40,324 nucleotides of DNA, taken from Alphaproteobacteria bacterium. Its GTDB lineage: Bacteria > Pseudomonadota > Alphaproteobacteria > CADEGL01. The stretch lies in contig JAPLOM010000030.1 in NCBI GenBank assembly GCA_026400755.1, positions 78,279-118,602 on the forward strand. The letters are read 5' to 3'. Of this stretch, positions 4,002 to 40,324 are shown in pieces. A program made the position numbers and the translations under genes. The notes under the pieces are model-generated. The model was not told the origin of the DNA and searched no databases. It saw only the letters and a list, made by a program, of their open reading frames with translations. Positions within the stretch are counted from its first letter, which is position 1, and the number at the start of each line of letters is the position of its first letter.

Positions 4002-5261
4002 ATGCAACGAGTAAAATTCGCCAATTGGCTGGCGGCCGCGTCCATCCTAGGCGCCGGCGCGTTGGCCGCGACACCCGCGCTCGCCGTCAAGGTTGGTCCG
4101 GTCTACGACCCGATCGGTGTCGTCAAGGTCAACAAAGGCCAGCCCATCACCATCGGCGGCTACTGGGTCCTGTCCGGTGCGGACACCGCGCTGGGTCTCG
4201 ATTCGAAGCGCGCGGCCGAGGTCTATTTCAATCAAATCGGCAACAAGATCGCCGGCCACCCGATCCGCTTCGTCGTTGAAGACGACGGCTGCAACGCGGA
4301 AGGCGGCCAGACGGCCTGCACCAAGCTGGCGGCCAACCAGAGCATCGTCGGCGTGCTCGGCCCGGCCTGCTCCAGCGCGGCGACGGCGGCCGCACCGATC
4401 CTGTGGAAGCAGGGCATGGTCAACATCGGCACGGCGTCTTCCGCGCCGCGTCTGACGGCAGCCGACCGCGGCCCGAACTTCGACGGCTTCGCACGCACGA
4501 TCTTCAGCGACGCCGAGCAGGCCAAGGGCGACACCAACTGGATGTACAACGTCAACAAGTGGAAGACGGCGGCGACCATCCATGACGGCAGCCCCTACGC
4601 CCAACAGCTGGTGGCCGAGTTCAAGATGAACTTCGAGAAGGCCGGCGGTAAAGTCGTCGCGGCGGAAGCCATCTCGCCGACCGACGTCGACATGCGCCCA
4701 GTGCTGACGCGCATCGCGACGTCCAAGCCGGAAGTTGTTTATTACCCGGTGTTCGTCGCGGCGGGTGGCCAGATCACTCGTCAGGCCAAGGAGACGGTGG
4801 GCCTGACCAAGAACCTGATCGGCGGCGGCTCGATGATGACCAAGGACATCATCACGGCCTCTGGCGACGCGGCGAAGGGCTTCCGCATCACCTTCCCGGA
4901 CGTTTCCAAGGAAGCCATGGGCAAGGATTATCCGAAGCTGGTGGCCGAATATAAAAAGCTGTTCGGTGAAGAGCCGATCCAGGGCTTCCACGCCCAGGCT
5001 TACGACGCGGCTCGTTTGCTCGTCACGGCGATCGATAAGGTCGCGGTCACGGACAAGGACGGCAACACCTATATCGGCCGTAAGGCGCTGCGCGATGCGG
5101 TGTTCAATGCACCCGAGTTCGATGGCATGAGCGGTCCGATCAAGTGCGATGCGAACGGCCAGTGCGGCAAGTTCAAGTTCGCCGTCTACGAGTTCGTAAA
5201 CGCCGACGCCTCGACGTTCGAGATCGGTAAGAATTCTAAGAAGATTTTCCTAATCCAGTAA
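4002..5261 (+). CDS. Branched-chain amino acid-type ABC transporter substrate-binding protein, copy 1
   Basis: This 419-residue periplasmic binding protein is of the LivJ/LivK type (Peripla_BP_6). Residues 1-28 form a signal peptide ending in ALA before VKVGPV. C97 (DDGCNAEGG) and C123 (GPACSSA) are placed like the disulfide pair of LivJ-type proteins; C106 is extra and unpaired. A second close pair sits near the C-terminus (KCDANGQC). ATG 4002 follows AGGAG with 6 bases spacing. The next gene is a near duplicate, and the permease and ATPase genes follow downstream, so it delivers ligand to LivHMGF. The ligand is unknown; neighbours point to amino acids or gamma-glutamyl or amide derivatives. 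An intrinsic terminator follows. Confidence 0.92.
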   Translation: MQRVKFANWLAAASILGAGALAATPALAVKVGPVYDPIGVVKVNKGQPITIGGYWVLSGADTALGLDSKRAAEVYFNQIGNKIAGHPIRFVVEDDGCNAEGGQTACTKLAANQSIVGVLGPACSSAATAAAPILWKQGMVNIGTASSAPRLTAADRGPNFDGFARTIFSDAEQAKGDTNWMYNVNKWKTAATIHDGSPYAQQLVAEFKMNFEKAGGKVVAAEAISPTDVDMRPVLTRIATSKPEVVYYPVFVAAGGQITRQAKETVGLTKNLIGGGSMMTKDIITASGDAAKGFRITFPDVSKEAMGKDYPKLVAEYKKLFGEEPIQGFHAQAYDAARLLVTAIDKVAVTDKDGNTYIGRKALRDAVFNAPEFDGMSGPIKCDANGQCGKFKFAVYEFVNADASTFEIGKNSKKIFLIQ

Positions 5262-5602: not shown

Positions 5603-6862
5603 ATGCAGAGAACCAAGCTCGTGAACTGGCTAGCGGCTGCGTCCATTCTTGGCGCAGGAGCCCTAGCTTCAGCACCCGCATGGGCGGTCAAGGTCGGGCC
5701 GGTCGATGACCCGCTGGGCGTCGTCAAGATCAGCAAGGGCCAGCCGATTACGATCGGCGCGTATTGGGTCATTTCGGGCGCCGACACGGCCCTGGGTATC
5801 GATTCCAAGCGCGCGGCCGAGGTCTACTTCAAGCAGATCAACAACCAGATTGTCGGTCACCCGATCCGCTTCATCGTCGAAGACGACGGCTGCAACGCGG
5901 AAGGCGGCCAGACGGCCGGCACCAAGCTGGCGGCCAACCAGAACATCGTCGGTGTGCTCGGGCCCGCGTGCTCAAGCGCCGCGACGGCAGCCGCGCCGAT
6001 CCTGTGGAAGCAGGGCATGGTCAACATCTGTACAGCCTGCACCGCGCCGCGTCTGACGGCGGCCGACCGCAGCGCCGAGTTCGCCGGCTTCGCACGAACG
6101 ATCTACAGCGATGCCGAACAAGCCAAGGGCGATGCTAACTGGATGTTCAACGTCATGAAGTGGAAGACGGCGGCGACCATCCATGACGGCAGCCCCTATG
6201 CCCAGCAGCTCGTGGCGGAGTTCAAGATGAACTTCGAAAAAGTCGGCGGCAAGGTCGTCGCGGGGGAAGCCGTCTCTCCCACCGACGTCGACATGCGTCC
6301 GGTGCTGACGCGCGTCGCGGCGTCCAAGCCGGACGTCGTCTACTACCCCGTGTTCGTGGCGGCGGGCGGCCATATCACCCGCCAGGCTGGTGAAACCGCG
6401 GGTCTGACCAAGAACCTGATCGGCGGCGGTTCGATGATGACGAAAGACATCATCACGGCGTCCGGTGCGGCGGCCAAGGGCTTCCGCATCACCTTCCCGG
6501 ACGTTTCGAAGGAAGCCATGGGTAAAGACTATCCGAAGCTGATCGCCGAATATAAGTCGATGTTCGGCGAGGCGCCGATCCAGGGTTTCCACGCCCAGGC
6601 CTACGACGCGGCCAAGCTCCTGACCATGGCCATCGAAAAGGTCGCGGTGAAGGACAAGGACGGCAACACCTACATCGGCCGCAAGGCTCTTCGCGACGCG
6701 GTGTTCAATGCGCCCGAGTTCGAAGGCATGAGCGGTCCGATCAAGTGCGACGCGAACGGCCAGTGCGGCAAGTTCAAGTTCGCGGCCTACGAGTTCACCA
6801 ATGCGGACGCTGCCACGTTCGACATCGGCGTGAACCCGAAGAAAATCTATCCGACGAACTAA
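5603..6862 (+). CDS. Branched-chain amino acid-type ABC transporter substrate-binding protein, copy 2
   Basis: This is the 419-residue paralogue of the gene at 4002, about 85 percent identical by eye. It has a signal peptide ending ...APAWA before VKVGPV. C97 and C123 are conserved, C106 of copy 1 is glycine here, and two new cysteines appear as C143 and C146 (NICTAC). Most substitutions between the copies fall in the first 190 residues and near the C-terminus, which may alter ligand range. The ATG follows AGGAG at 7 bases spacing. It has its own terminator (6885-6910), so it is probably transcribed as a separate unit that serves the downstream LivHMGF. Confidence 0.92.
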   Translation: MQRTKLVNWLAAASILGAGALASAPAWAVKVGPVDDPLGVVKISKGQPITIGAYWVISGADTALGIDSKRAAEVYFKQINNQIVGHPIRFIVEDDGCNAEGGQTAGTKLAANQNIVGVLGPACSSAATAAAPILWKQGMVNICTACTAPRLTAADRSAEFAGFARTIYSDAEQAKGDANWMFNVMKWKTAATIHDGSPYAQQLVAEFKMNFEKVGGKVVAGEAVSPTDVDMRPVLTRVAASKPDVVYYPVFVAAGGHITRQAGETAGLTKNLIGGGSMMTKDIITASGAAAKGFRITFPDVSKEAMGKDYPKLIAEYKSMFGEAPIQGFHAQAYDAAKLLTMAIEKVAVKDKDGNTYIGRKALRDAVFNAPEFEGMSGPIKCDANGQCGKFKFAAYEFTNADAATFDIGVNPKKIYPTN

Positions 6863-12621: not shown

Positions 12622-13329
<708 letters not shown>

Positions 13330-13357
13330 GCGGCCTTTCCAGGCACGTGTTTCCGGC

Positions 13358-13390
13358 GGCCGGCCCCCAAGGGGCCGGCCGTTCGCTTTT
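13358..13390 (+). terminator. Terminator at the end of the liv operon
   Basis: A perfect 10-bp stem GGCCGGCCCC / GGGGCCGGCC with a CAA loop is followed by GTTCGCTTTT. The T-run is separated from the stem by six bases, so efficiency may be moderate. Confidence 0.65.
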
Positions 13391-13492
13391 GGGGACTGGC
13401 CGTTGTCGGCGGCCGTTGGTTGGGGTTACGATCCAGACCCTATTCGCCGCCTGCCGGCGGCCGACTTTCACGCCCGGAACAGGGAGTCCGTC

Positions 13493-14434
13493 ATGCGCTT
13501 CGATGGCGTCTATTCACCGGTGATCACGCCGTTCAACGACGATGAGACGATCGACGAAGCGGCCTGGTACGAGATGATCGATTGGCAGATCGCCAACGGC
13601 GTCCACGGCCTGGTGATCGGCGGCTCGACCGGCGAGGTCTACGCCCTCTCGAAGGAAGAGCGTCTCGACCAGTTCCGCAAGGCCAAGGCCTTCATCAAGG
13701 GTCGCGTGCCCTGGTTGGCCGGCGTCAACGCCATGACGACCAAGGAATGCTGCGGCTTCGCCGAGGCCGCGCGCGAGATCGGCGCGGACGGCCTCCTGAT
13801 TGCCGCGCCGCCGTATTCGCTGCCGACCGAGAAAGAGCTGGCGCTCCATGTGCTGCGCATCGAGCGCGCCGCGGGCCTGCCCATCATGCTTTACAACTAT
13901 CCGGGCCGGACGGGCGTCGAGATGGGCGAGGAGTTTCTCGCGCGCGTGGCGCAGAACGCCAACATCCGCGCCCTCAAGGAAACCAGCGGCGACATCAACC
14001 GCGTGCACCTGATCGCGCGCGAATTCCCGCAGTTGGAGCTGATCTGTGGCGCCGACGACCAGGTTCTGGAGTTCTTCGTCTGGGGCTCGCGCGGCTGGGT
14101 CTGCGGCGCGGCCAACTGCGTCTTGAAGGAAGCCCTCGCCATCTGGGAGGCCTGCGTCGTCGAGAAGAACTTCGAGAAGGGCCGCCGCATGACCATGGCC
14201 ATGATGCCGCTGTTCAGCGTGCTAGAGCGCGGTGGCAAGTTCCTGCAGTGCGTGAAGTACGCCTGCGACATCCAGGGCCTGCCGTCCGGCGCCGTCCGCC
14301 GTCCGCTGCTGCCGCTGAAGAAGGAGTTCGCGCGCGAGCTGCGCGACGCGCTTCTGACCGGCCAGGCTGCGGTGCGCGCCATCCAGGAAGAAAGCAAGCA
14401 CCCCGCCGCCAAGGTGCATCAACTCCGCGCGTAA
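13493..14434 (+). CDS. DapA/N-acetylneuraminate lyase family protein
   Basis: This 313-residue (beta/alpha)8 aldolase-class protein keeps the family residues: GGSTGE at 43-48, the proton-relay tyrosine Y134 in YNYPGRTG and the Schiff-base lysine K162 in LKETSGD. Members include dihydrodipicolinate synthase, sugar-acid lyases and pyrroline-4-hydroxy-2-carboxylate deaminase. The YNYP...KETSGDINR region and the GWVCGAANC segment recall the Pseudomonas-type hydroxyproline deaminase, but this is from memory of the family. ATG 13493 was chosen because AGGGAG precedes it; the frame is open further upstream but reads intergenic sequence. The aldehyde dehydrogenase gene begins 12 bases after the stop, so the two products probably act in sequence. 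Confidence 0.88.
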   Translation: MRFDGVYSPVITPFNDDETIDEAAWYEMIDWQIANGVHGLVIGGSTGEVYALSKEERLDQFRKAKAFIKGRVPWLAGVNAMTTKECCGFAEAAREIGADGLLIAAPPYSLPTEKELALHVLRIERAAGLPIMLYNYPGRTGVEMGEEFLARVAQNANIRALKETSGDINRVHLIAREFPQLELICGADDQVLEFFVWGSRGWVCGAANCVLKEALAIWEACVVEKNFEKGRRMTMAMMPLFSVLERGGKFLQCVKYACDIQGLPSGAVRRPLLPLKKEFARELRDALLTGQAAVRAIQEESKHPAAKVHQLRA

Positions 14435-14446
14435 GGAACGCCAGTC

Positions 14447-15973
14447 ATGTCCGATCTTCTGACCCGCGAGGAATTCCAGTCCATCGCGGACCGCATGGAC
14501 TTGCCCAACAACGCCTTTATCAACGGCCGCTTCACGGCCGCGCAGGCGGGCAAGCGTTTCGACACGCATAACCCCGCCACGGGCAAGAAGATCACCGAGA
14601 TCGCGCTGTGCGACGCGGCCGACGTGGACACGGCGGTGACTAAGGCGCGCGAGGCGTTCCAGCGCGGCGTGTGGTCGAAGATGCATCCGACGGAGCGCAA
14701 GAAGCGCCTGATCCAGGTGGCCAAGCTGATCCGCCGCGACCGCTTCCAGTTGGCGGTGATGGAGAGCGTGGAAAGCGGCAAGCCGATCCGCGACATCATG
14801 ACCGTGGACCTGCCGGAGACGCTGCAGTGCCTGGAATGGCATGCGGAAGTGACCGACAAGCTCTACGACCAGGTCTCGCCCTCGGGCGACGATGCGCTCG
14901 GCCTCGTGGTGCGCGAGCCGCTGGGCGTCGTGGCCTGCGTGCTGCCTTGGAACTTCCCGCTGATGATGGTGGCGTGGAAGATCGGCCCCGCGCTTTCGGC
15001 CGGCAACAGCGTGATCGTGAAGCCCGCCGAGCAGACCAACATGACCACCCTGCGCCTGGCCGAGTTGGCGCTCGAAGCCGGCATTCCGCCGGGGGTCTTC
15101 TCGGTCGTCACCGGCCCCGGCGAGGTCACCGGCCGCGCCCTTGGCCTGCATCCCGACATCAACGGCATCTCGTTCACGGGCTCGACCGAGATCGGCCGTA
15201 AGTTCCTGGAGTACTCGGCGCAGAGCAACCTGAAGCGCACGGTTCTGGAATGCGGTGGCAAGAACCCGTCGGTCGTCCTGGCCGACGCCGAGAATCTCGA
15301 CGAGGTGGCGCGCCACGTCGTCTATTCCGTGCTGTGGAACATGGGCCAGAACTGCTCGTCCAACTCGCGCCTGATCGTCGACCGCAAGATCAAGGACAAG
15401 CTGATGGAGCGGGTCGTGGCGCGCGTGCGCGACTGGCGCACGGGCTATCCGCTCGATCCCGCCAACGCGCTCGGCGCCATCATCTCGAAAGAGCAGTACG
15501 ACAAGATCCTGCGCTATATCGAGATCGGCAAGAAGGAAGGCGCCTCGGTCGCGGCCGGCGGCGACGCCATCAAGGACGGCGAGGGGCTTTACATCGCGCC
15601 GACGATCTTCGATGGCGTAAAGCCGAACATGACCATCGCTAAGGAAGAGATCTTCGGCCCCGTTCTGTCGGTCATCACGGTCAATAGCACCGAGGAGGCC
15701 GTCCAGGTCGCCAACGACACCAGCTATGGGCTGCAGGCCTCGCTGTTCACCGCCAACGTGCGTTCGGCCCACCGGGTTTCCCGCGCGCTGCAGGCCGGCA
15801 CGGTCACGGTCAATTGCTATGGCGAGGGCGACATCACGACGCCCTTCGGCGGCTACAAGCTGTCCGGCTTCGGCGGCCGCGACAACTCGCTCAAGGCCCA
15901 CGACCAGTACACTGAAACCAAGACCATCTGGATCGACCTGAGCGATCGCCACATGGACGAGACGGTGGCCTAA
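14447..15973 (+). CDS. NAD(P)-dependent aldehyde dehydrogenase, PuuC-like
   Basis: This 508-residue aldehyde dehydrogenase has the full catalytic set: N169 in LPWNF, K192 in VKPAE, the GSTEIG nucleotide loop (245-250), E268 in LECGGK and the nucleophile C303 in GQNCSSNSR. The overall sequence, including the ending PFGGYK..G...S...TETKTIWI, resembles E. coli PuuC (gamma-glutamyl-gamma-aminobutyraldehyde dehydrogenase) and betaine-aldehyde-type enzymes. It is coupled to the DapA-family gene, so it may oxidise the aldehyde product, for example a semialdehyde. The exact substrate is not readable. Confidence 0.92.
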   Translation: MSDLLTREEFQSIADRMDLPNNAFINGRFTAAQAGKRFDTHNPATGKKITEIALCDAADVDTAVTKAREAFQRGVWSKMHPTERKKRLIQVAKLIRRDRFQLAVMESVESGKPIRDIMTVDLPETLQCLEWHAEVTDKLYDQVSPSGDDALGLVVREPLGVVACVLPWNFPLMMVAWKIGPALSAGNSVIVKPAEQTNMTTLRLAELALEAGIPPGVFSVVTGPGEVTGRALGLHPDINGISFTGSTEIGRKFLEYSAQSNLKRTVLECGGKNPSVVLADAENLDEVARHVVYSVLWNMGQNCSSNSRLIVDRKIKDKLMERVVARVRDWRTGYPLDPANALGAIISKEQYDKILRYIEIGKKEGASVAAGGDAIKDGEGLYIAPTIFDGVKPNMTIAKEEIFGPVLSVITVNSTEEAVQVANDTSYGLQASLFTANVRSAHRVSRALQAGTVTVNCYGEGDITTPFGGYKLSGFGGRDNSLKAHDQYTETKTIWIDLSDRHMDETVA

Positions 15974-17007: not shown

Positions 17008-17739
17008 GTGAAAGGCAAAGCGGTGGTCATTACCGGCGGCGCTCAGGGCATCGGCTACGCGATCGCGGAGCTTCTCGTCGAGCGCGGCGCCAAGGTCGCG
17101 ATCATGGACGTGGCGCAAGGCCCGATCGACAAGGCCGTCGCGGGTCTGAAGGCCAAGGGCGGCGAGGCCGTCGGCATTCCCGTCGACCTGCGCGTCGGCG
17201 CCAACTGCTACAAGGCGTTCGACCAGGCCGTGAAGGCCTTTGGCCGCATCGACGCGCTGGGCAACGTGGCCGGCGTCTATGTGCGCAAGCCGATCCTCGA
17301 GATCACCGACGACGAATGGAACGAGATGCTGGGCGTCAATGTGCGCGGCCTCTACCACATGACCGTCGCGGCCTTCAAACACATGAAGGAAAAGGGCGGC
17401 GGCAAGATCGTCAACATCGCCTCGATCGACGCCTGGAAGGCGCATCCGAAGAATTCGCACTACGCGGCGTCGAAGGCCGCGGTGGTCAGCCTGTCGCGCA
17501 GCTTCGCCCTCGAAGGCGCGCCCCACAAAATTTACGTCAACACCATCTCACCCGGCCCCGTGGCCACCGAGAAGGCCAAGAACGCGGGCTGGCTGCCCGA
17601 GGAAGCGGCCAAGGTTCCGCTCGGCCGCGCGGCGGAGCCCAAGGACATCGCCCAGGCCTTCTGCTACCTGGCCAGCGACGAAAGCAACTACGTCGTCGGC
17701 GTGAACCTGTTCGTGAACGGCGGCTACATCATTCTTTGA
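17008..17739 (+). CDS. Short-chain dehydrogenase/reductase (SDR) 1
   Basis: This 243-residue classical SDR has the nucleotide motif TGGAQGIG, D34 at the end of the second strand (favouring NAD over NADP), N111, S139, Y152 and K156 (HYAASK). The usual NNAG motif reads NVAG here. The start is GTG 17008, supported by GGAG about 8 bases upstream; no ATG fits. The next SDR gene begins 14 bases after its stop. It is clearly the outlier among the four SDRs in this cluster. The substrate is unknown; a hydroxy or oxo acid or alcohol of the neighbouring pathway is likely. Confidence 0.9.
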   Translation: MKGKAVVITGGAQGIGYAIAELLVERGAKVAIMDVAQGPIDKAVAGLKAKGGEAVGIPVDLRVGANCYKAFDQAVKAFGRIDALGNVAGVYVRKPILEITDDEWNEMLGVNVRGLYHMTVAAFKHMKEKGGGKIVNIASIDAWKAHPKNSHYAASKAAVVSLSRSFALEGAPHKIYVNTISPGPVATEKAKNAGWLPEEAAKVPLGRAAEPKDIAQAFCYLASDESNYVVGVNLFVNGGYIIL

Positions 17740-17753
17740 GCTGGGAGCGAAAC

Positions 17754-18530
17754 ATGGCGGGGACCCGGCCTGAAGCCAGTTTGGACGGCAAGATCATCAT
17801 CGTGACGGGCGCGGCCATGGGCATGGGCCGTACCCATGCCCAGCTTCTGGCCGGACGTGGGGCTCACGTCGTGGTGCAGGACATCGACAAGGCCAAGGCC
17901 GAGGAAACCGCGCAGCTGGTGACCAAGGCCGGCGGCAAGGCGCGTGTCATGGCCTGCGACATCTCGGACACGGACGCTGTGGCGCGCGCGTTCGCCTCGG
18001 TCGAAAAGGCACTGGGCCGCGTCGACGTGCTGGTCAACAACGCCGGTATCCACAATCGCCGCGCGATCGAAGAAGTCACGCCCCAGGACTTCGATGCCAC
18101 GTTCGGCGTCCACGTGAAGGGCACCTTCTTCGCGACCAAGGCCGTGATCCCGGGCATGAAGGCGCGCAAGTCCGGCAAGATCATCAACATCTCGTCGGCC
18201 TGGGGCATGGTGGGCAATCCCACCGACAGTCACTATTGCGGCGCCAAGGCGGCGCTTCTGGGCGTGACCAGGTCGTGGGCTAAGGAATTCGCGCCCTGGA
18301 ACATCAACGTCAACGCCATCGCTCCCGGCATGGTATTGACCGAGATGACAAAGCAGAACCGTTCGGCCGCTGAGATCAAGGAATTCTGCGACAAGCTGAT
18401 CCCGCTCGGCCGCATGGGCGAGCCCATGGAGTTCAGCTACGCGGTCGCTTTCCTGGCGTCGGCGGAATCGGACTTCATCACCGGCCAAGTCCTGTCGCCC
18501 AACGGCGGCGAATTCATCGTCGGATTCTAA
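17754..18530 (+). CDS. Short-chain dehydrogenase/reductase (SDR) 2
   Basis: This 258-residue classical SDR has the motif TGAAMGMG, D43 after the second strand (NAD preference), NNAG, S148, Y161 and K165 (HYCGAK). The usual asparagine of the catalytic tetrad (NVKG) is histidine here (H120, HVKG). It resembles SDR 3 and SDR 4 downstream far more than SDR 1. ATG 17754 follows GGGAGCG. The frame is open far upstream, but that part overlaps SDR 1. The next gene starts 12 bases later. Confidence 0.9.
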   Translation: MAGTRPEASLDGKIIIVTGAAMGMGRTHAQLLAGRGAHVVVQDIDKAKAEETAQLVTKAGGKARVMACDISDTDAVARAFASVEKALGRVDVLVNNAGIHNRRAIEEVTPQDFDATFGVHVKGTFFATKAVIPGMKARKSGKIINISSAWGMVGNPTDSHYCGAKAALLGVTRSWAKEFAPWNINVNAIAPGMVLTEMTKQNRSAAEIKEFCDKLIPLGRMGEPMEFSYAVAFLASAESDFITGQVLSPNGGEFIVGF

Positions 18531-18542
18531 GAGGCAGTGAAG

Positions 18543-19261
18543 ATGACAACCGATCAACGCAAGAGCGCGCGGCTCGACGGCAAGGTCGCGATCGTCACCG
18601 TAGCCGGCGCCGGTATGGGCAAGGCCGAAGCCATCTTCCTGGCCGAGCGCGGCGCGCGCGTGGGCGTCCAGGATATCGACGCCAAGGTGGCCGAGGCCAC
18701 GGTGGCCGAGATCCGCAAGGCGGGCGGCGAGGCCCTGGTGCTGGTTGGCGATCTGTCCAAGCCCGCCGATTCGGCGCGCAACGTGGCGGAGATTGCGGCC
18801 AAGTGGGGCACGGTCGACGTCCTGGTGAACAACGCCGGCATCCACGAATTCAAGGATTCCGAGCAAATGGACGAAGCCAGCTTCGACCGGATGTTCGGCG
18901 TCAACGTGAAGGGCCTGTTCTTCGCGACCCAGGCCGTGATCAAAGGCATGAAGGCCAAGGGCAGCGGCAAGATCATCAACATCGCCTCCACCGCCGCCAT
19001 GGTGGGGCAGGCAGGCAGCCCGCACTACTCGGGCTCCAAAGGGGCCGTGCTGGCGATGACCAAGTCGTGGGCCAAGGAGTTGGCGCCCTGGAAGATCACC
19101 GTGAACGCAATCTGCCCGGGTCCGATCATGACCGACATGGTGATCCGCGCTCGCGGCATCGAAGGCGCAAAGAAGCGCGCGGAGACGGAAATCCCCCTGC
19201 GCCGCTATGGCGAGGCCAATCCATGGCCATCAACGGCGGCACCACCATCGTCGGCATCTGA
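18543..19261 (+). pseudogene. Short-chain dehydrogenase/reductase (SDR) 3, C-terminally damaged
   Basis: The first 224 codons are a normal SDR close to its neighbour: S149, Y162 and K166 are intact, and D44 suggests NAD. After RRYGE the frame breaks. The expected ending QSMAINGGTTIVGI and stop (19259-19261) lie in another frame, and about 20 codons that SDR 4 has at this point (between RRYGN and GQSM) are missing. A deletion of roughly 60 bases, not a multiple of three, explains this. The first glycine of the TGxxxGxG cofactor motif is also valine (V20). In the present frame no stop occurs and translation would continue into SDR 4, giving a 503-residue fusion (18543-20054). ATG 18543 follows GAGG; GTG 18537 is too close to it. 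Confidence 0.8.
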
Positions 19262-19268
19262 GGGTTCC

Positions 19269-20054
19269 ATGGGCGCAGCGATCGACAACCGCACTTCCGC
19301 CAGCCTCGACGGCAAGGTCGTCTACATCACGGGCGCAGGCGCCGGCATGGGGCGCGAGGACGCGCTTCTGGTGGCCACGCGCGGCGCGCTTGTGGCCGTG
19401 CAGGATATCGACGGCAAAGCCGCGCAAGAAACCGTGGCCAAGATTTCGGCCGCCGGCGGCCAAGCCTTCGCCATCGTGGGCGATGTGGCCAAGCCCGAGG
19501 ACTGCAAGCGCATGGCGCAGGAGGCCGAGGCCAAGCGGGGCCGCGTGGACGTGCTGGTCAACAACGCCGGCATCCATGAGCGGCGCGACTTGGAGGCTAT
19601 GGAGGAAGTCCACTTCAACCGCATGTTCGACGTGCATGTGAAGGGCAGCTTCTTCACGACCCAGGCGCTGGTGCCCGGCATGAAAGCGCGCGAGTCCGGC
19701 AAGATCATCAACATCGCCTCGACCGCGGGCATGGTCGCGACCGTGGGCGATGCCCATTACTGCGCGGCCAAGGCGGCCTTGCTGGGCTTCACCAAGGCCT
19801 GGGCCAAGGAACTCGCGCCCTGGAACATCAACGTGAATGCCATCTGTCCGGGGCCGATTGCGACAGAGCTGGCCGTGCGCAACCGCGGCTGGGACGGCAT
19901 CCGCGAGCGGGCGGAGAAGGAGATTCCGCTGCGCCGCTACGGCAACCCCATCGACGTGGCGTATGCGGTGGCCTTCCTGGCCTCGGCCGAATCCGATTTC
20001 ATCACCGGCCAGTCCATGCCCATCGCGGGCGGCCTGGCCATCGTCGGAATCTGA
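19269..20054 (+). CDS. Short-chain dehydrogenase/reductase (SDR) 4
   Basis: This 261-residue classical SDR has TGAGAGMG at 21-28, D47 after strand two (NAD preference), NNAG, S151, Y164 and K168, with the tetrad asparagine replaced by histidine (DVHVKG) as in SDR 2. It is complete, ending SMPIAGGLAIVGI. GAGGG precedes ATG 19269 by a few bases, so it can be translated on its own. The same frame is also open through the damaged SDR 3 upstream. It ends three bases before the stop of the convergent orphan gene. Confidence 0.88.
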   Translation: MGAAIDNRTSASLDGKVVYITGAGAGMGREDALLVATRGALVAVQDIDGKAAQETVAKISAAGGQAFAIVGDVAKPEDCKRMAQEAEAKRGRVDVLVNNAGIHERRDLEAMEEVHFNRMFDVHVKGSFFTTQALVPGMKARESGKIINIASTAGMVATVGDAHYCAAKAALLGFTKAWAKELAPWNINVNAICPGPIATELAVRNRGWDGIRERAEKEIPLRRYGNPIDVAYAVAFLASAESDFITGQSMPIAGGLAIVGI

Positions 20055-20057
20055 AAT

Positions 20058-20651
20058 CTATATTCCGAATATCTCTTTCTTTTTTGTGTACGGCATTTGT
20101 TTGCTTATGAGTTTCGCCGCGTCGATCTTGCTCTGTATCAATTGCATATCGCTCTGAGACAATGCTGAAAATTTTTCAAACGCTTCCCGATCTGGGTTGT
20201 TCGCTATCTTCTTCGCGAGGCTAACAGTATCGACCTTGCTGAGATCGACGTCAGTTAGATCGAATCCTAGGTCAAATAGCGGCCGAGGTCCTACACCCTC
20301 TTGATATTCTGATAGGAAGATCGCAGCGGCAGCCATAACTTCAATTTTTGTTTCATCAGTCTCTCGGACGATCTCGCTGCCTATTGCATCAAGAATTTGT
20401 TCTTTCGAGTAAGGAAGTAAATTAACGTCTTTGATCGCGTTAGCGCCGCGTTTTTCACGTTCCAAAAATGCGCCATATTCCGCGACGATTTTTATATTCT
20501 CTAGGGTGAGGTTTTTCTTTTCAGTCGGCGGTGCAACTATCTGACCAGATATCGTCGTGCCGGGTTTTTTCTGAGTCACAGGTTTTCTTCGTCGCCATAT
20601 AAAGAAAGCGACCAAGAGAATAAGTACGACAATCCACGTCCATTCGGTCAT
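20058..20651 (-). CDS. Hypothetical membrane-anchored protein, AT-richer than its surroundings
   Basis: This 197-residue protein is not recognised. Residues 5-18 (WTWIVVLILLVAFF) form a single membrane helix followed by the basic WRRRKP segment, so most of the protein should face the cytoplasm. The rest is charged and mostly helical. There are no cysteines, no metal sites and no repeat. The DNA is visibly richer in A and T than the genes on both sides, with codons such as ATA, TTA and AAT that are rare elsewhere in the window, which suggests recent acquisition. A GGAAGG sequence lies about 13 bases before ATG 20651. It is convergent with SDR 4. Confidence 0.7.
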   Translation of the reverse strand: MTEWTWIVVLILLVAFFIWRRRKPVTQKKPGTTISGQIVAPPTEKKNLTLENIKIVAEYGAFLEREKRGANAIKDVNLLPYSKEQILDAIGSEIVRETDETKIEVMAAAAIFLSEYQEGVGPRPLFDLGFDLTDVDLSKVDTVSLAKKIANNPDREAFEKFSALSQSDMQLIQSKIDAAKLISKQMPYTKKKEIFGI

Positions 20652-20674
20652 TAGGCCGTGTCAACCTTCCAGCT

Positions 20675-21919
20675 TTAAAACCGCTCGATCCGATACGGCT
20701 TCAGGTCGATCACGGACGGCCGGTCGGCCATCATGTCGGACACCAGGCGGCCGCACACGGCGGCTTGGGTCAGGCCGTAATGGCCGCTGCCGAAGGCGTA
20801 GAAGACGTTGCGGAAGCGCGGCGCGCGCGAGATCACGGGCACCGAATCCGGCATCATCGGCCGGTCGCCGCTCCACTGGGTGTAACCTTCGGTCTGGATG
20901 CCCGGGAAGACGCGCTGCGCCACCTTCAGCACCGCGTCCGCGCGGCGCCAGTCTGGTGGAGAATCCACGCCCGAAAATTCCAGCGTGCCGGCGAAGCGTA
21001 AGCCCATCGACATGGGCGTGATGGCCACCTGATGCTCCGCCGCTACGACGACGTGGCGAAGTTGAATGCCGGAGTTGGGCAGGGTGACGTGATAGCCCTT
21101 GCCGGATTCGAGCGGCACCTTGCTGCCCATCAGCGCGGCCAGACGATGCGAGTATGCGCCCGCCGCGACCACCAGATTCTGGACCGGGCGCACGGCTTGA
21201 TTGGTGCGCAGGGCGCGCGGCCCTTCCGGTCCCATCTCGATGGCGCTGACGGTCTCGCGCAGGATCGTGCCGCCGTTGCGCTGGAACGTCTCGGCCAGGC
21301 CGGTGACGATGCGGAACGGATCGGCCACGTGCCGGAACTCGGGCTCGAAGATAGCGCAGGTGTATTTGGACGGCAGGCCTGGTTCGAGTTGGCGCAGTTC
21401 GGCGGCGTTCAGGCGCTGGCTCTTATAGCCGCGCTCCCACAGCATCTGCCAGATCGGCAGGTCGGCCTCGAGGTTCGCTTCGCGTTCGTAGGGGTTGATG
21501 CAACCGCCGTGGCTGACTTGGTCCTCCAGCCGCGCATCCTTCAGGAGCGGCAGCCAGTGGTCGTAGGCGATGTGCTGGATCGCGCCCAGCGACTCGATGG
21601 TGCTGCCGATGCGCGCATTGCTGCCCGTGGGCAGAAAGCGCAGCAGCCACGGAATGAGGCGCGGGAAATAGGTCGGCTTGAGCGCCAGCGGGCCAAGCGG
21701 GTCCAGCAGGTAGCGCGGGATTTTCTTGAGCATGCCGGGTGTGGCCACGGGGAAGGCATGGTCGACGCCGATGCCGCCCGCGTTGCCGAAGGAACAGCCC
21801 TCGCCCGGCGGCAGCCGGTCGATGACCGTAACTTGGCGTCCCTCGCGCTGAAGGGTGAGCGCGGTGGCCATACCGACCACGCCTGCGCCGATGATGGTGA
21901 CGGGAGACGTGGCATTCAT
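20675..21919 (-). CDS. FAD-dependent D-amino acid dehydrogenase (DadA/DAO family), probably for D-hydroxyproline
   Basis: This 414-residue flavoprotein of the DAO family has the dinucleotide motif GAGVVG at residues 11-16, an acidic residue ending strand two (TVIDRLPPG) and the DadA-type segments CSFGNAGGI and WSGDRPMMPDSVPVI near the C-terminus. It oxidises a D-amino acid to the imino acid and passes electrons to the respiratory chain. It is divergent from a hydroxyproline 2-epimerase-like gene with shared palindromic operators between them, so D-hydroxyproline (cis-4-hydroxy-D-proline) is the likely substrate. The family alone would also allow D-alanine or D-proline. Confidence 0.85.
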   Translation of the reverse strand: MNATSPVTIIGAGVVGMATALTLQREGRQVTVIDRLPPGEGCSFGNAGGIGVDHAFPVATPGMLKKIPRYLLDPLGPLALKPTYFPRLIPWLLRFLPTGSNARIGSTIESLGAIQHIAYDHWLPLLKDARLEDQVSHGGCINPYEREANLEADLPIWQMLWERGYKSQRLNAAELRQLEPGLPSKYTCAIFEPEFRHVADPFRIVTGLAETFQRNGGTILRETVSAIEMGPEGPRALRTNQAVRPVQNLVVAAGAYSHRLAALMGSKVPLESGKGYHVTLPNSGIQLRHVVVAAEHQVAITPMSMGLRFAGTLEFSGVDSPPDWRRADAVLKVAQRVFPGIQTEGYTQWSGDRPMMPDSVPVISRAPRFRNVFYAFGSGHYGLTQAAVCGRLVSDMMADRPSVIDLKPYRIERF

Positions 21920-21975: not shown

Positions 21976-21988
21976 CTTGTGCAACAAG
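21976..21988. promoter_or_regulatory. CTTGT-GCA-ACAAG inverted repeat (candidate GntR-type operator)
   Basis: The TTGT-N3-ACAA pattern resembles operators of FCD-type GntR regulators, which often control D-amino acid and hydroxyproline genes. Its centre is about 20 bases, near two helical turns, from that of the adjacent palindrome. No GntR gene lies in the window. Confidence 0.45.
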
Positions 21989-22029
21989 CTTTTTATCCGG
22001 CCCGACCGGGCCGTGCAGGGGTTCGCGCC

Positions 22030-23028
22030 ATGGCCAGCCATACCTTCTTCTGCATCGATTCGCACACCTGCGGCTGCCCCGTGCGGGTGGTGGCGGGTGG
22101 CGCGCCGCCGCTGAAGGGTGCTTCGGCCAGCGAACGCCGCCAGAATCTCCTGGCTGAATACGATTGGGTCCGCACCGGCCTGATGTTCGAGCCGCGCGGC
22201 CACGACATGATGTCGGGCAGCATCCTCTATCCGCCCACGCGCCCCGATTGCGACCTGGGCATCATCTTCATCGAGACCAGCGGTTCGCTGCCCATGTGCG
22301 GCCACGGCACCATCGGCACGGTGACGGTGGCGCTGGAGCGCGGCCTGGTCCATCCCATGACGCCCGGCAAGCTGCGGCTCGACACGCCGGCCGGCGTGGT
22401 CGAGGCCACCTACGTCCAGAACGGCGAGCATGTGGACACGGTTCGCATCGTCAACGTGCCGTCCTATGTTCACGCCACGGGCATCGAGGTCGATTGCCCG
22501 GAATACGGCGCGCTGACCATCAACATCGCCTATGGCGGAAACTTCTACGCCATCGTCGAGCCGCAGAAGAACTATCGCGGGCTCGAGCACATGACGGCCA
22601 ACGATATCATCCGTCTGTCGCCGAAATTCCGAGAGCGCGTGAACGCCGCCCTCCTATGCGTGCATCCCGAGGATGAAACAATCCGCGGCGTCGAGCACAT
22701 CATGTGGACAGGCAAGCCGTCCAAGGGCGCCGACGGCAAGAGCGCGGTGTTCACCGCCGAACGCGCCATCGACCGCAGCCCGTGCGGCACCGGCACCTCG
22801 GCGCGCATGGCGCTGTTGCATTCGCGCGGCGAATTGAAGCAGGGACAGGATTACGTCCACGAGAGCCTCATCGGCAGCCTCTTCCACGGCCGTGTCGAAG
22901 GCCTGGCCAAGGTTGGCAACCATCCGGCCGTGATCCCCAGCATCGAAGGCTGGGCGCGCATCACCGGCTACAACACGATCTTCATCGACGACCGCGACCC
23001 CTACGCCCACGGCTTCACGCTGCCGTAG
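22030..23028 (+). CDS. Proline racemase family, 4-hydroxyproline 2-epimerase type
   Basis: This 332-residue enzyme of the proline racemase/hydroxyproline epimerase family has both catalytic cysteines: C90 in MCGHGTIG and C252 in DRSPCGTGTSAR. The Cys/Cys pair and the length of about 333 fit 4-hydroxyproline 2-epimerase, which converts trans-4-hydroxy-L-proline to cis-4-hydroxy-D-proline; relatives with Thr in place of the second or Ser in place of the first Cys are dehydratases or other epimerases. ATG 22030 was chosen because AGGGG precedes it; the frame is open back to 21979 but would cover the operators. It is divergent from the DadA-like gene, which would oxidise its product. Confidence 0.88.
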   Translation: MASHTFFCIDSHTCGCPVRVVAGGAPPLKGASASERRQNLLAEYDWVRTGLMFEPRGHDMMSGSILYPPTRPDCDLGIIFIETSGSLPMCGHGTIGTVTVALERGLVHPMTPGKLRLDTPAGVVEATYVQNGEHVDTVRIVNVPSYVHATGIEVDCPEYGALTINIAYGGNFYAIVEPQKNYRGLEHMTANDIIRLSPKFRERVNAALLCVHPEDETIRGVEHIMWTGKPSKGADGKSAVFTAERAIDRSPCGTGTSARMALLHSRGELKQGQDYVHESLIGSLFHGRVEGLAKVGNHPAVIPSIEGWARITGYNTIFIDDRDPYAHGFTLP

Positions 23029-25830: not shown

Positions 25831-26775
25831 ATGGAGCTTCGCCAGCTTCGCACCTTCCGGTCGGTGGCCGAACTGGGCAGCCTGAGTAAGGCCGCCGACA
25901 GCCTGCGCATCGCCCAGCCCGCGCTCAGCCGCCAGATCAAGCTTCTGGAACACGAGCTGCGCACGCCCTTGTTCGTGCGCAACGGCCGCGGCATGGCCCT
26001 GACCGACGCGGGCCGGCTGCTGCTGGCGCGCATCGGCGGGCTGGTGCGGCAGTTGGAGCAAGTGCGCGACGATGTGGCCTCGCTCTCCGGCGCGCCCTCC
26101 GGCCAAGTGGTTCTGGGCGTGGTGCCCACGGTCAGCACGGTGCTGGCCAGCCGCTTGGCCCAGGCCGTGCTGCGCGACCGGCCCGGAATCAGCTTGCGCA
26201 TTGTCGAGAGCTTTGGCGGGCATCTGTTGGATTGGCTCCATCGGGGCGAACTGGACCTGGCCGTGATCTATGGCCGCGGGCCCGACCTGCATCTGCGCAC
26301 CGAGACCTTGGCGCGGGACGAATTGATGGTCGTGGGCGCGCGCGGCTCGGGCCTGGCCAAGCGCAAGGGCGTGTCGATCGAATGGTTGGCGCGCCAGCCC
26401 CTGATCCTGCCCAGCCCGCCTCATGGCTTGCGCACGCTGATCGACACCGCGGCGGCCAAGCGAAAGCTTTCGCTCAACGTCCTTTTGGAAACCGATTCCT
26501 TTCGCGTTCAGATCGACGTGGTGGAAAGCGGGCACGGCTATACCGTGCTGCCGCCCTCGGCCATCTTCCGCGAGTTGCGCCAGGGCCGGCTGGAGGCCGC
26601 GCCGATCACGGCGCCCCGCCTGCCCTGCGAGCTGGTTCTGGCGTTTCCCACCGGCCGGGCGCCGTCCTTGGCGACCGAGTCTATCGCCGGCCTGATCCGC
26701 GCCGAGGTTGCGGCGGTGGGCAAGGACGGTCATTGGACCGCGATCGCGAAAGCGCCCTCGCGCCGGAAGGCTTGA
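25831..26775 (+). CDS. LysR family transcriptional regulator
   Basis: This 314-residue regulator has the LysR winged helix-turn-helix in residues 1-60 (MELRQLRTF, then LGSLSKAADSLRIAQPALSRQI and LEHELRTPLFVR), followed by an effector-binding domain from about residue 90 (GQVVLGVVPTV). It is similar in layout to Nac/Cbl-type regulators of nitrogen and amino acid use, but no specific effector can be read. It is divergent from pxpABC by 133 bases, so control of 5-oxoprolinase and of its own gene is the natural inference. A second matching site upstream of the TPP decarboxylase/acyl-CoA dehydrogenase pair suggests a wider local regulon. Confidence 0.93.
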   Translation: MELRQLRTFRSVAELGSLSKAADSLRIAQPALSRQIKLLEHELRTPLFVRNGRGMALTDAGRLLLARIGGLVRQLEQVRDDVASLSGAPSGQVVLGVVPTVSTVLASRLAQAVLRDRPGISLRIVESFGGHLLDWLHRGELDLAVIYGRGPDLHLRTETLARDELMVVGARGSGLAKRKGVSIEWLARQPLILPSPPHGLRTLIDTAAAKRKLSLNVLLETDSFRVQIDVVESGHGYTVLPPSAIFRELRQGRLEAAPITAPRLPCELVLAFPTGRAPSLATESIAGLIRAEVAAVGKDGHWTAIAKAPSRRKA

Positions 26776-27912: not shown

Positions 27913-27995
27913 GGTGCCTCCTGCCAGCGTAGATCGCCGTGTGAGGTTTCTAGCGCGGCGGAGGCCATCGCAACCTTGCCGAGTTGCGCGACCAG

Positions 27996-38472: not shown

Positions 38473-38506
38473 TCCATTTCCCCCAATTCTCGTGCTTTGC
38501 GACCGA

Positions 38507-38781: not shown

Positions 38782-40324
38782 ATGAAGCGCGGCATCCTGC
38801 GGCTATCGATCGGCGCTTACCTCATCGCGTTCAATTCGGTGCTGGCCGGCCTGGTGCTCGCGATTCTGGTCGTCGAGATCGGGTACGACCGCGCGCGGAC
38901 GATCAACGAATTCGTGCGCGAGATCGACAACGTCTCCGACGTCTTGTCCGGTCATATGCGAGAGTCTTTCGGCGTGATCGACCAGGCCCTTTTGGGGATG
39001 GCCGAAATCCTGGCCACCGAGAGGATGGAACGCCCGCTTCCTCTACGAGCGCCTGGTCGAACGCCAACGTCTGACCTTCGGCACCTACGCCTATTACCTG
39101 TTGGGCCCCGACGGGACGCTGCGTTATGTCTCCAGCGCGCCGAAAGCGGAGCCTGCGGATTTTTCGTCGCTGCCGTCCTTCCAGGTCCATCGCGAGAATT
39201 CGCCCGGCCTCTATATCGGGGCACCTTCGCGCGGGACATATGGCGACACCGCGGGCAAGTGGGTGGTTCACGTCACCCGGCGAATTTCGCGCGCGGACGG
39301 CAGCTTCGCGGGGGTGGTCGGCGCGATCCTATCGCTCGACGACCTGCGACAGGCGCTGAGCCAGCTCAATGTCGGACCGGACGGCGCGATCGGCGTGTTT
39401 CGCGCCGACGGCATCCTGCTGACCCGGCATCCGGCGCGGGAAGAAATCATAGGACGCTCTTACCAATCCTCGCCCCTGTTCTCGGAGCACGTGGCGCAGC
39501 GTCCGAACGGCATGGCGCCGATGCGCTATTACAGCGACGGCGTGATGCGCTACACCTCTTATCGCACCGTCGAGGCGCGGCCCCTGGTCGTCTCGGTCGC
39601 GGCATCCGAACAAGATATGCTGAGCGCATGGAGCGAGCGCACGGTGGTCGCGGTGGCCACGGCTCTGTTCTTGATCGCGCTTCTGGGCGCGGCGACGGTG
39701 GTCGCGCACCGCGTGCTTCGCCGGCGCGAGAGCGAACAGCGCGCCAACTCCGCGCGCTTGTCGAAGCTGGCGGCGGCCGCCGCCGAACTGGCCTCGGTCG
39801 GCGACCTGGATGCTTTGTTACGGCGGACGACCGAGACCGCGCGGGCGTTGATCGGCTGTCATCAAGCCATGACGACCGTGGATGAAGGCGATGAGGCCCG
39901 GCACACCCTTTCCATCTCGGAAAAGTATACGGCATGGCACCGTTCCGACGGCGACGCCGCGGACGTCTATGGCTTTGTGTTCGAGCGCAATCGGCCGGCG
40001 CGGCTGACGCAGGCTGAACTGGAGAGTCATCCGATCTGGCGCGAGCTGCGCGATGGGAGCCCGCCTCTGCGGGGTTGGCTGTCTGTCCCCCTGATCGGCC
40101 AGGACGGCTTAATCCTGGGAAGGATCCGTCTGTCCGATCGCGAGGCCGGAGAATTCACGGAGGATGACGAGGCCATCCTCGTCCAGATCGCCAACGTGGC
40201 CTCGGCCGCGATCGAGAATATCCGCATGGCCGCGCGCGAGCGCGAATCCGCGGTACAACTCCGCCAGGCTCAGAAGATGGAATCCCTCGGCCAGTTGACC
40301 GGCTGCGTCGCCCATGACTTCAAC
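38782..40324 (+). pseudogene. Sensor histidine kinase with frameshift (partial, runs off right edge)
   Basis: The ATG at 38782 begins a normal sensor N-terminus: a membrane helix at about residues 11-32, then a helical periplasmic start ending LLGMAEILATERMER. Near 39030-39038 the frame shifts by one base: the continuation FLYERLVERQRLTFGTYAYY and all that follows lie in the next frame, which stays open to the window edge. That part holds a Cache-like sensor domain, a second membrane helix (TALFLIALLGAATVVA), a GAF-like domain (GCHQAM...WLSVPLIGQDGLILG...IANVASAAIENI) and the beginning of the kinase phosphoacceptor region QAQKMESLGQLTGCVAHDFN. The H-box histidine is in VAHDFN. A single inserted base, or two lost, in CGCCCGC explains the break; a sequencing error is possible. 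Confidence 0.8.

Follow-up and report, generated by a model that had tools for sequence, protein, structure and literature searches.

A 61-base deletion places two adjacent SDR genes in one reading frame, probably reflecting the recent loss of one of them

We analysed a window of 40,324 nucleotides from a draft alphaproteobacterial genome (G000; 87 contigs, 3.36 Mb), in which a catabolic locus of the 4-hydroxyproline type holds an array of four paralogous SDR genes, SDR1 to SDR4. Near the 3' end of SDR3, 61 bases have been deleted, which joins the reading frame of this gene to that of SDR4, and we consider it probable that SDR3 is a recently inactivated gene, a pseudogene, and the fused frame a by-product of its loss. 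This is a clean, polarised case of two co-directional genes that a small deletion turns into a fusion ORF; no sequence had to be added, since the second frame was open beforehand. It is otherwise ordinary turnover within a gene family. In annotation, the 503-aa protein would be logged as a two-domain SDR, and the reading supported here has one gene broken and the other intact.

The deletion and the fused reading frame

The ORF listing shows an open frame of 503 codons on the forward strand, from the ATG at 18543 to the TGA at 20052-20054, that unites SDR3 and SDR4 (505 aa with the GTG at 18537 as the start) and in which Pfam recognises two adh_short/adh_short_C2 stretches. In alignment with the copy from the same genus, exactly 61 bases are missing between positions 19213 and 19214 of the forward strand, the junction 19214/19215 being equally possible owing to one base of microhomology. 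That copy, L009 (MAG RBC064), matches contig 21 of G001 where the two were compared, and G001, hereafter the sister genome, is the sole same-genus relative of G000 among the genomes searched. In L009 the genes follow one another as in the window, and SDR3 (ORF end 8831) and SDR4 (ATG 8839) are separate and intact; both are likewise separate, intact and in the same order in G002, a genome of the same family that is also unbroken at the junction. Two separate genes are thus the ancestral state, and only the lineage of the window, or its assembly, has the deletion. A preliminary description of this DNA had proposed that some 60 bases were lost near the C-terminus of SDR3, destroying one SDR and leaving an in-frame SDR3'-SDR4 frame, and had called for a comparison with related genomes; the gap of 61 bases and the two normal genes in each relative agree with that proposal.

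What survives of SDR3 are codons 1-223 plus two bases (18543-19213, forward strand). The sequence around the junction reads GGCGA before it and GGCCAATCC after it, followed by the old ending of the gene, QSMAINGGTTIVGI, now out of frame (19217-19261, forward strand; CAA TCC ATG GCC ATC AAC GGC GGC ACC ACC ATC GTC GGC ATC TGA, with the TGA at 19259-19261). The fused frame passes from the SDR3 remnant through a frameshifted linker, NPWPSTAAPPSSASEGS (19214-19268, forward strand), which is modelled with low confidence, and meets the ATG of SDR4 at 19269, which sits in the shifted frame of SDR3. The preliminary description had thus correctly read both the old ending in another frame and a shifted frame that reaches SDR4 without a stop.

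Two shifted phases were possible for SDR3, one stopping at 19639 and the other entering SDR4, so that, given a frameshift, a fusion had a chance of about one in two. Moreover, no stop interrupts the frame of SDR4 in the 62 codons before its ATG in L009 or in the 31 before it in G002, and the shifted frame of SDR3 therefore reached SDR4 without new sequence. Selection is unnecessary as an explanation of the fusion frame, and the avoidance of a premature stop would be compatible, too, with selection favouring a non-polar lesion or a useful fusion. As to the origin of the deletion, we considered slippage between GCC repeats at its ends, but this would take out 62 bases rather than the 61 observed and gives no exact fit.

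We propose the following events. A single deletion would have taken out the stretch coding for the last helix of SDR3 and most of the way to its last strand; the 61 bases being one more than a multiple of three, ribosomes translating SDR3 would shift into the already open frame of SDR4. Those initiating at the start of SDR3 would make a fusion of 503 aa with a defective N-terminal half, and SDR4 could still be started at its own conserved ATG.

The SDR3 remnant and the intact SDR4

SDR1, SDR2, SDR4 and the SDR3 of the sister genome are complete members of the classical SDR family (PF00106/PF13561, FabG-like), for which the best single-SDR solved structure is 4jro. The remnant of SDR3 retains the catalytic residues S149, Y162 and K166 and the NNAG motif. 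It differs from the family in the loss of its last helix and last strand and of the first glycine of TGxxxGxG, which is V20 in the window (GTA, versus GGC in L009 and G002), a replacement that had already been noticed in the preliminary description; glycine occupies this column in all 146 of the other SDRs aligned.

In SDRs, the terminal helix-strand unit is packed against the Rossmann sheet and sits at the interface of the oligomer. The model of the intact SDR3 from the sister genome (mean pLDDT 92.4) places the last helix at residues 225-236 and the last strand at 247-250, both among the residues that the window no longer encodes in frame. In the fusion as modelled, the stretch between 217 and 258 forms neither helix nor strand apart from a three-residue turn, and pLDDT is below 50 at 216-245; the N-terminal half had no aligned relatives in this run, so confidence in that half is limited. 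Because the deletion takes away the helix and strand that end the fold, the N-terminal half is, on these models, unlikely to be a working enzyme, and loss of function of SDR3 is to be expected. A functional SDR-SDR fusion enzyme should combine two complete folds, carry an intact TGxxxGxG in both halves and be conserved as a fusion in relatives, whereas here the N-terminal half stops before the last helix and strand and contains V20, and the genes are separate in G001 and G002. As in a pseudogene, a non-triplet indel has removed essential elements of the fold, and the nearest relatives keep an intact orthologue at the same locus.

The valine had also been taken as a sign that SDR3 was already decaying, an idea that the pattern of substitutions does not support. 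Between the window and the sister genome, SDR3 has a dN/dS of 0.135, inside the range of 0.07-0.18 of its neighbours (SDR1, 0.073; SDR2, 0.175; SDR4, 0.085; DAO, 0.151), and its changes are distributed as 20/10/59 over the three codon positions; amino-acid changes, polarised by G002, number 11 on the branch of the window and 9 on that of the sister. Together, these data speak against a long decay, and no relaxation of selection is seen in them, as expected for a very recent event or an artefact. The loss is therefore either recent or an error of assembly; SDR3 appears to have been constrained until very recently, or else the gene remains whole and was wrongly assembled. V20 could be just as recent as the deletion.

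SDR4 encodes a complete classical SDR of 261 aa (19269-20054, forward strand). Its ribosome-binding site (GAGGG, four bases before the ATG) and start codon, at 19260-19271 of the forward strand, are identical in the sister genome, and since the start GAGGGTTCCATG is the same in both, SDR4 could be made alone from its own or internal start, and its activity would be expected to survive. This ribosome-binding site shares bases with the old TGA of SDR3 (TGAGGG...ATG), and the overlap points to possible translational coupling of the two genes. The two halves of the fused frame are 62% identical, so that, with such a close paralogue adjoining, the loss of SDR3 would be tolerable, presumably through redundancy with its paralogues.

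Right after the stop of SDR4, the window carries an insert of about 600 bp (20055-20672) with 44% GC, versus 65% for the window, at a point where SDR4 abuts the next gene in L009. The insert holds a minus-strand ORF of 197 aa with a hydrophobic N-terminus, which has no Pfam match and is absent from the ten relatives searched.

Assembly error and other explanations

The most serious alternative is an error of assembly or consensus in the draft genome, by which the organism would have a normal SDR3 and the 61 bases would have been dropped when contigs were joined; we regard this as unlikely, though clearly worth weighing. It would agree with the fully constrained appearance of SDR3 outside the deletion and with the short runs of N (67, 10 and 16 bases in total) in other stretches or contigs of the draft, which reveal scaffold joining. 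Likewise, a second frameshifting deletion, of 11 bp, affects a conserved histidine-kinase gene on the same contig, about 1.3 kb from the contig end. In kind, SDR3 comes closest to a recent bacterial pseudogene made by a small frameshifting deletion, a singleton fs-gene in the scheme of Antonov et al. 2013 (PMC3711429): it is broken in one genome only, is intact in its nearest relatives and has otherwise constrained codons, although its shifted frame continues into the next gene with no stop. In that study, singleton frameshifts validated by BLASTp are expected to stem from sequencing errors and not from genuine indels, and this expectation counts towards an artefact.

On the other hand, the junction contains no N and has clean flanks, 61 bases are too many for a base-calling error, and the repeat at the ends of the deletion is a single base, with none longer. 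V20 is, in addition, an independent and probably damaging change in SDR3, and this second, separate lesion therefore favours a real inactivation. To place the lesion in the context of the draft, we compared selected stretches amounting to about 175 kb of G000 and about 160 kb of G001, pairing ORFs that shared at least 85% identity along most of their length. The 79 matched ORFs (25,872 aa, including overlapping spurious frames) contain just two genes broken in G000, SDR3 and the histidine-kinase gene at 38782, which lends no support to a generally frameshift-riddled assembly. Both, however, lie on the contig of the window, and an artefact therefore has to be reckoned with. By judgement, not computation, we hold a real deletion to be about twice as probable as an artefact.

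The histidine-kinase lesion deserves a separate description. The gene (38782-40324) encodes a hybrid sensor histidine kinase, of 874 aa in G001, and lacks 11 bp near 39030, with about 93% amino acid identity on both sides of the junction; the missing bases mark either a genuine lesion or, this close to where the contig stops, a fault of the assembly. Two other indels in the window (34 bp near 27921 and about 49 bp near 38481) fall in leader or intergenic sequence, where they disrupt no gene.

It is improbable that the fused frame encodes a new and working SDR-SDR enzyme of two domains, with the SDR3 remnant as a structural or regulatory partner of SDR4. The frame is indeed unbroken for 503 codons, the SDR4 domain is complete, and proteins with two SDR domains exist: the yeast multifunctional enzyme type 2 (3R)-hydroxyacyl-CoA dehydrogenase (PDB 2et6) has two in one chain, both of which match SDR4. 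That protein, however, is an established enzyme that has a linker and an interface of its own, whereas the fusion in the window has one truncated half, a linker of out-of-frame coding sequence and, by our reading, a recent accident as its origin. Besides lacking the structural and cofactor elements described above, it is a derived state found in one genome only, and the event is too recent for selection to be visible. An ORF scan of the 80 loci that the query retrieved showed no fusion of this kind, and the tandem SDR pairs inspected are separate genes; an open-frame figure of 519 had hinted at a fusion of two adjacent SDRs in G002, where the direct ORF listing shows separate genes. A search of plasmids returned only partial SDR matches. 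A more specific version, in which the 503-aa protein is produced and the truncated SDR3 half is kept as a non-catalytic partner of SDR4, making a newborn and unoptimised two-domain oxidoreductase, is still harder to credit.

Least credible of all is frameshifting, whether programmed or phase-variable, by which SDR3 would be restored or fused and separate forms would alternate: the old ending does survive on the 3' side of the junction, but inspection by eye revealed no slippery run or tandem repeat there, the relatives have no frame transition at this position, and a frameshift could regain the old C-terminal 14 residues and the stop but never the 20 deleted residues.

The SDR array and its locus

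The recent loss of SDR3, our preferred reading, would have taken place in an array that starts with the intact classical SDRs SDR1 (17008-17739) and SDR2 (17754-18530), both on the forward strand. On one side, the array is flanked by a branched-chain-type ABC transporter, a DHDPS-family gene (13211-14434, forward strand), an aldehyde dehydrogenase gene (14447-15973, forward strand) and an EamA transporter; on the other, by a DAO-family oxidoreductase (20675-21919, reverse strand) and a 4-hydroxyproline epimerase (21979-23028, forward strand; NF010578, 556.6 bits against a cutoff of 376). The enzyme families of trans-4-hydroxy-L-proline catabolism are 4HypE, a DAAO-family oxidase, a DHDPS-family deaminase and a KGSA dehydrogenase (PMC4113996). 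All four, together with a transporter, are found around the array, as in the clusters described there, and by these roles the three remaining enzymes are candidates for Pyr4H2C deaminase (DHDPS family), alpha-ketoglutarate semialdehyde dehydrogenase (aldehyde dehydrogenase) and cis-4-hydroxy-D-proline oxidase (DAO family). Unlike these genes, the SDR array falls outside the four listed families.

The copy number of the array (17008-20054; also L103, L105 and L106) differs among genomes, with four SDRs in G000 and G001, five in G002 and three in those parts of G003 and G004 that were read. Since its size varies among relatives, copy turnover is normal in this SDR family.

Two further differences from the sister genome were seen elsewhere in the window. 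Tandem genes for an ABC substrate-binding protein (4002-5261 and 5603-6862) both match the one copy with which the G001 contig begins, which may reflect either a duplication or a contig-edge effect. Likewise, about 1.7 kb of G001 (C21:21295-23036) is absent from the window between positions 26760 and 26782.
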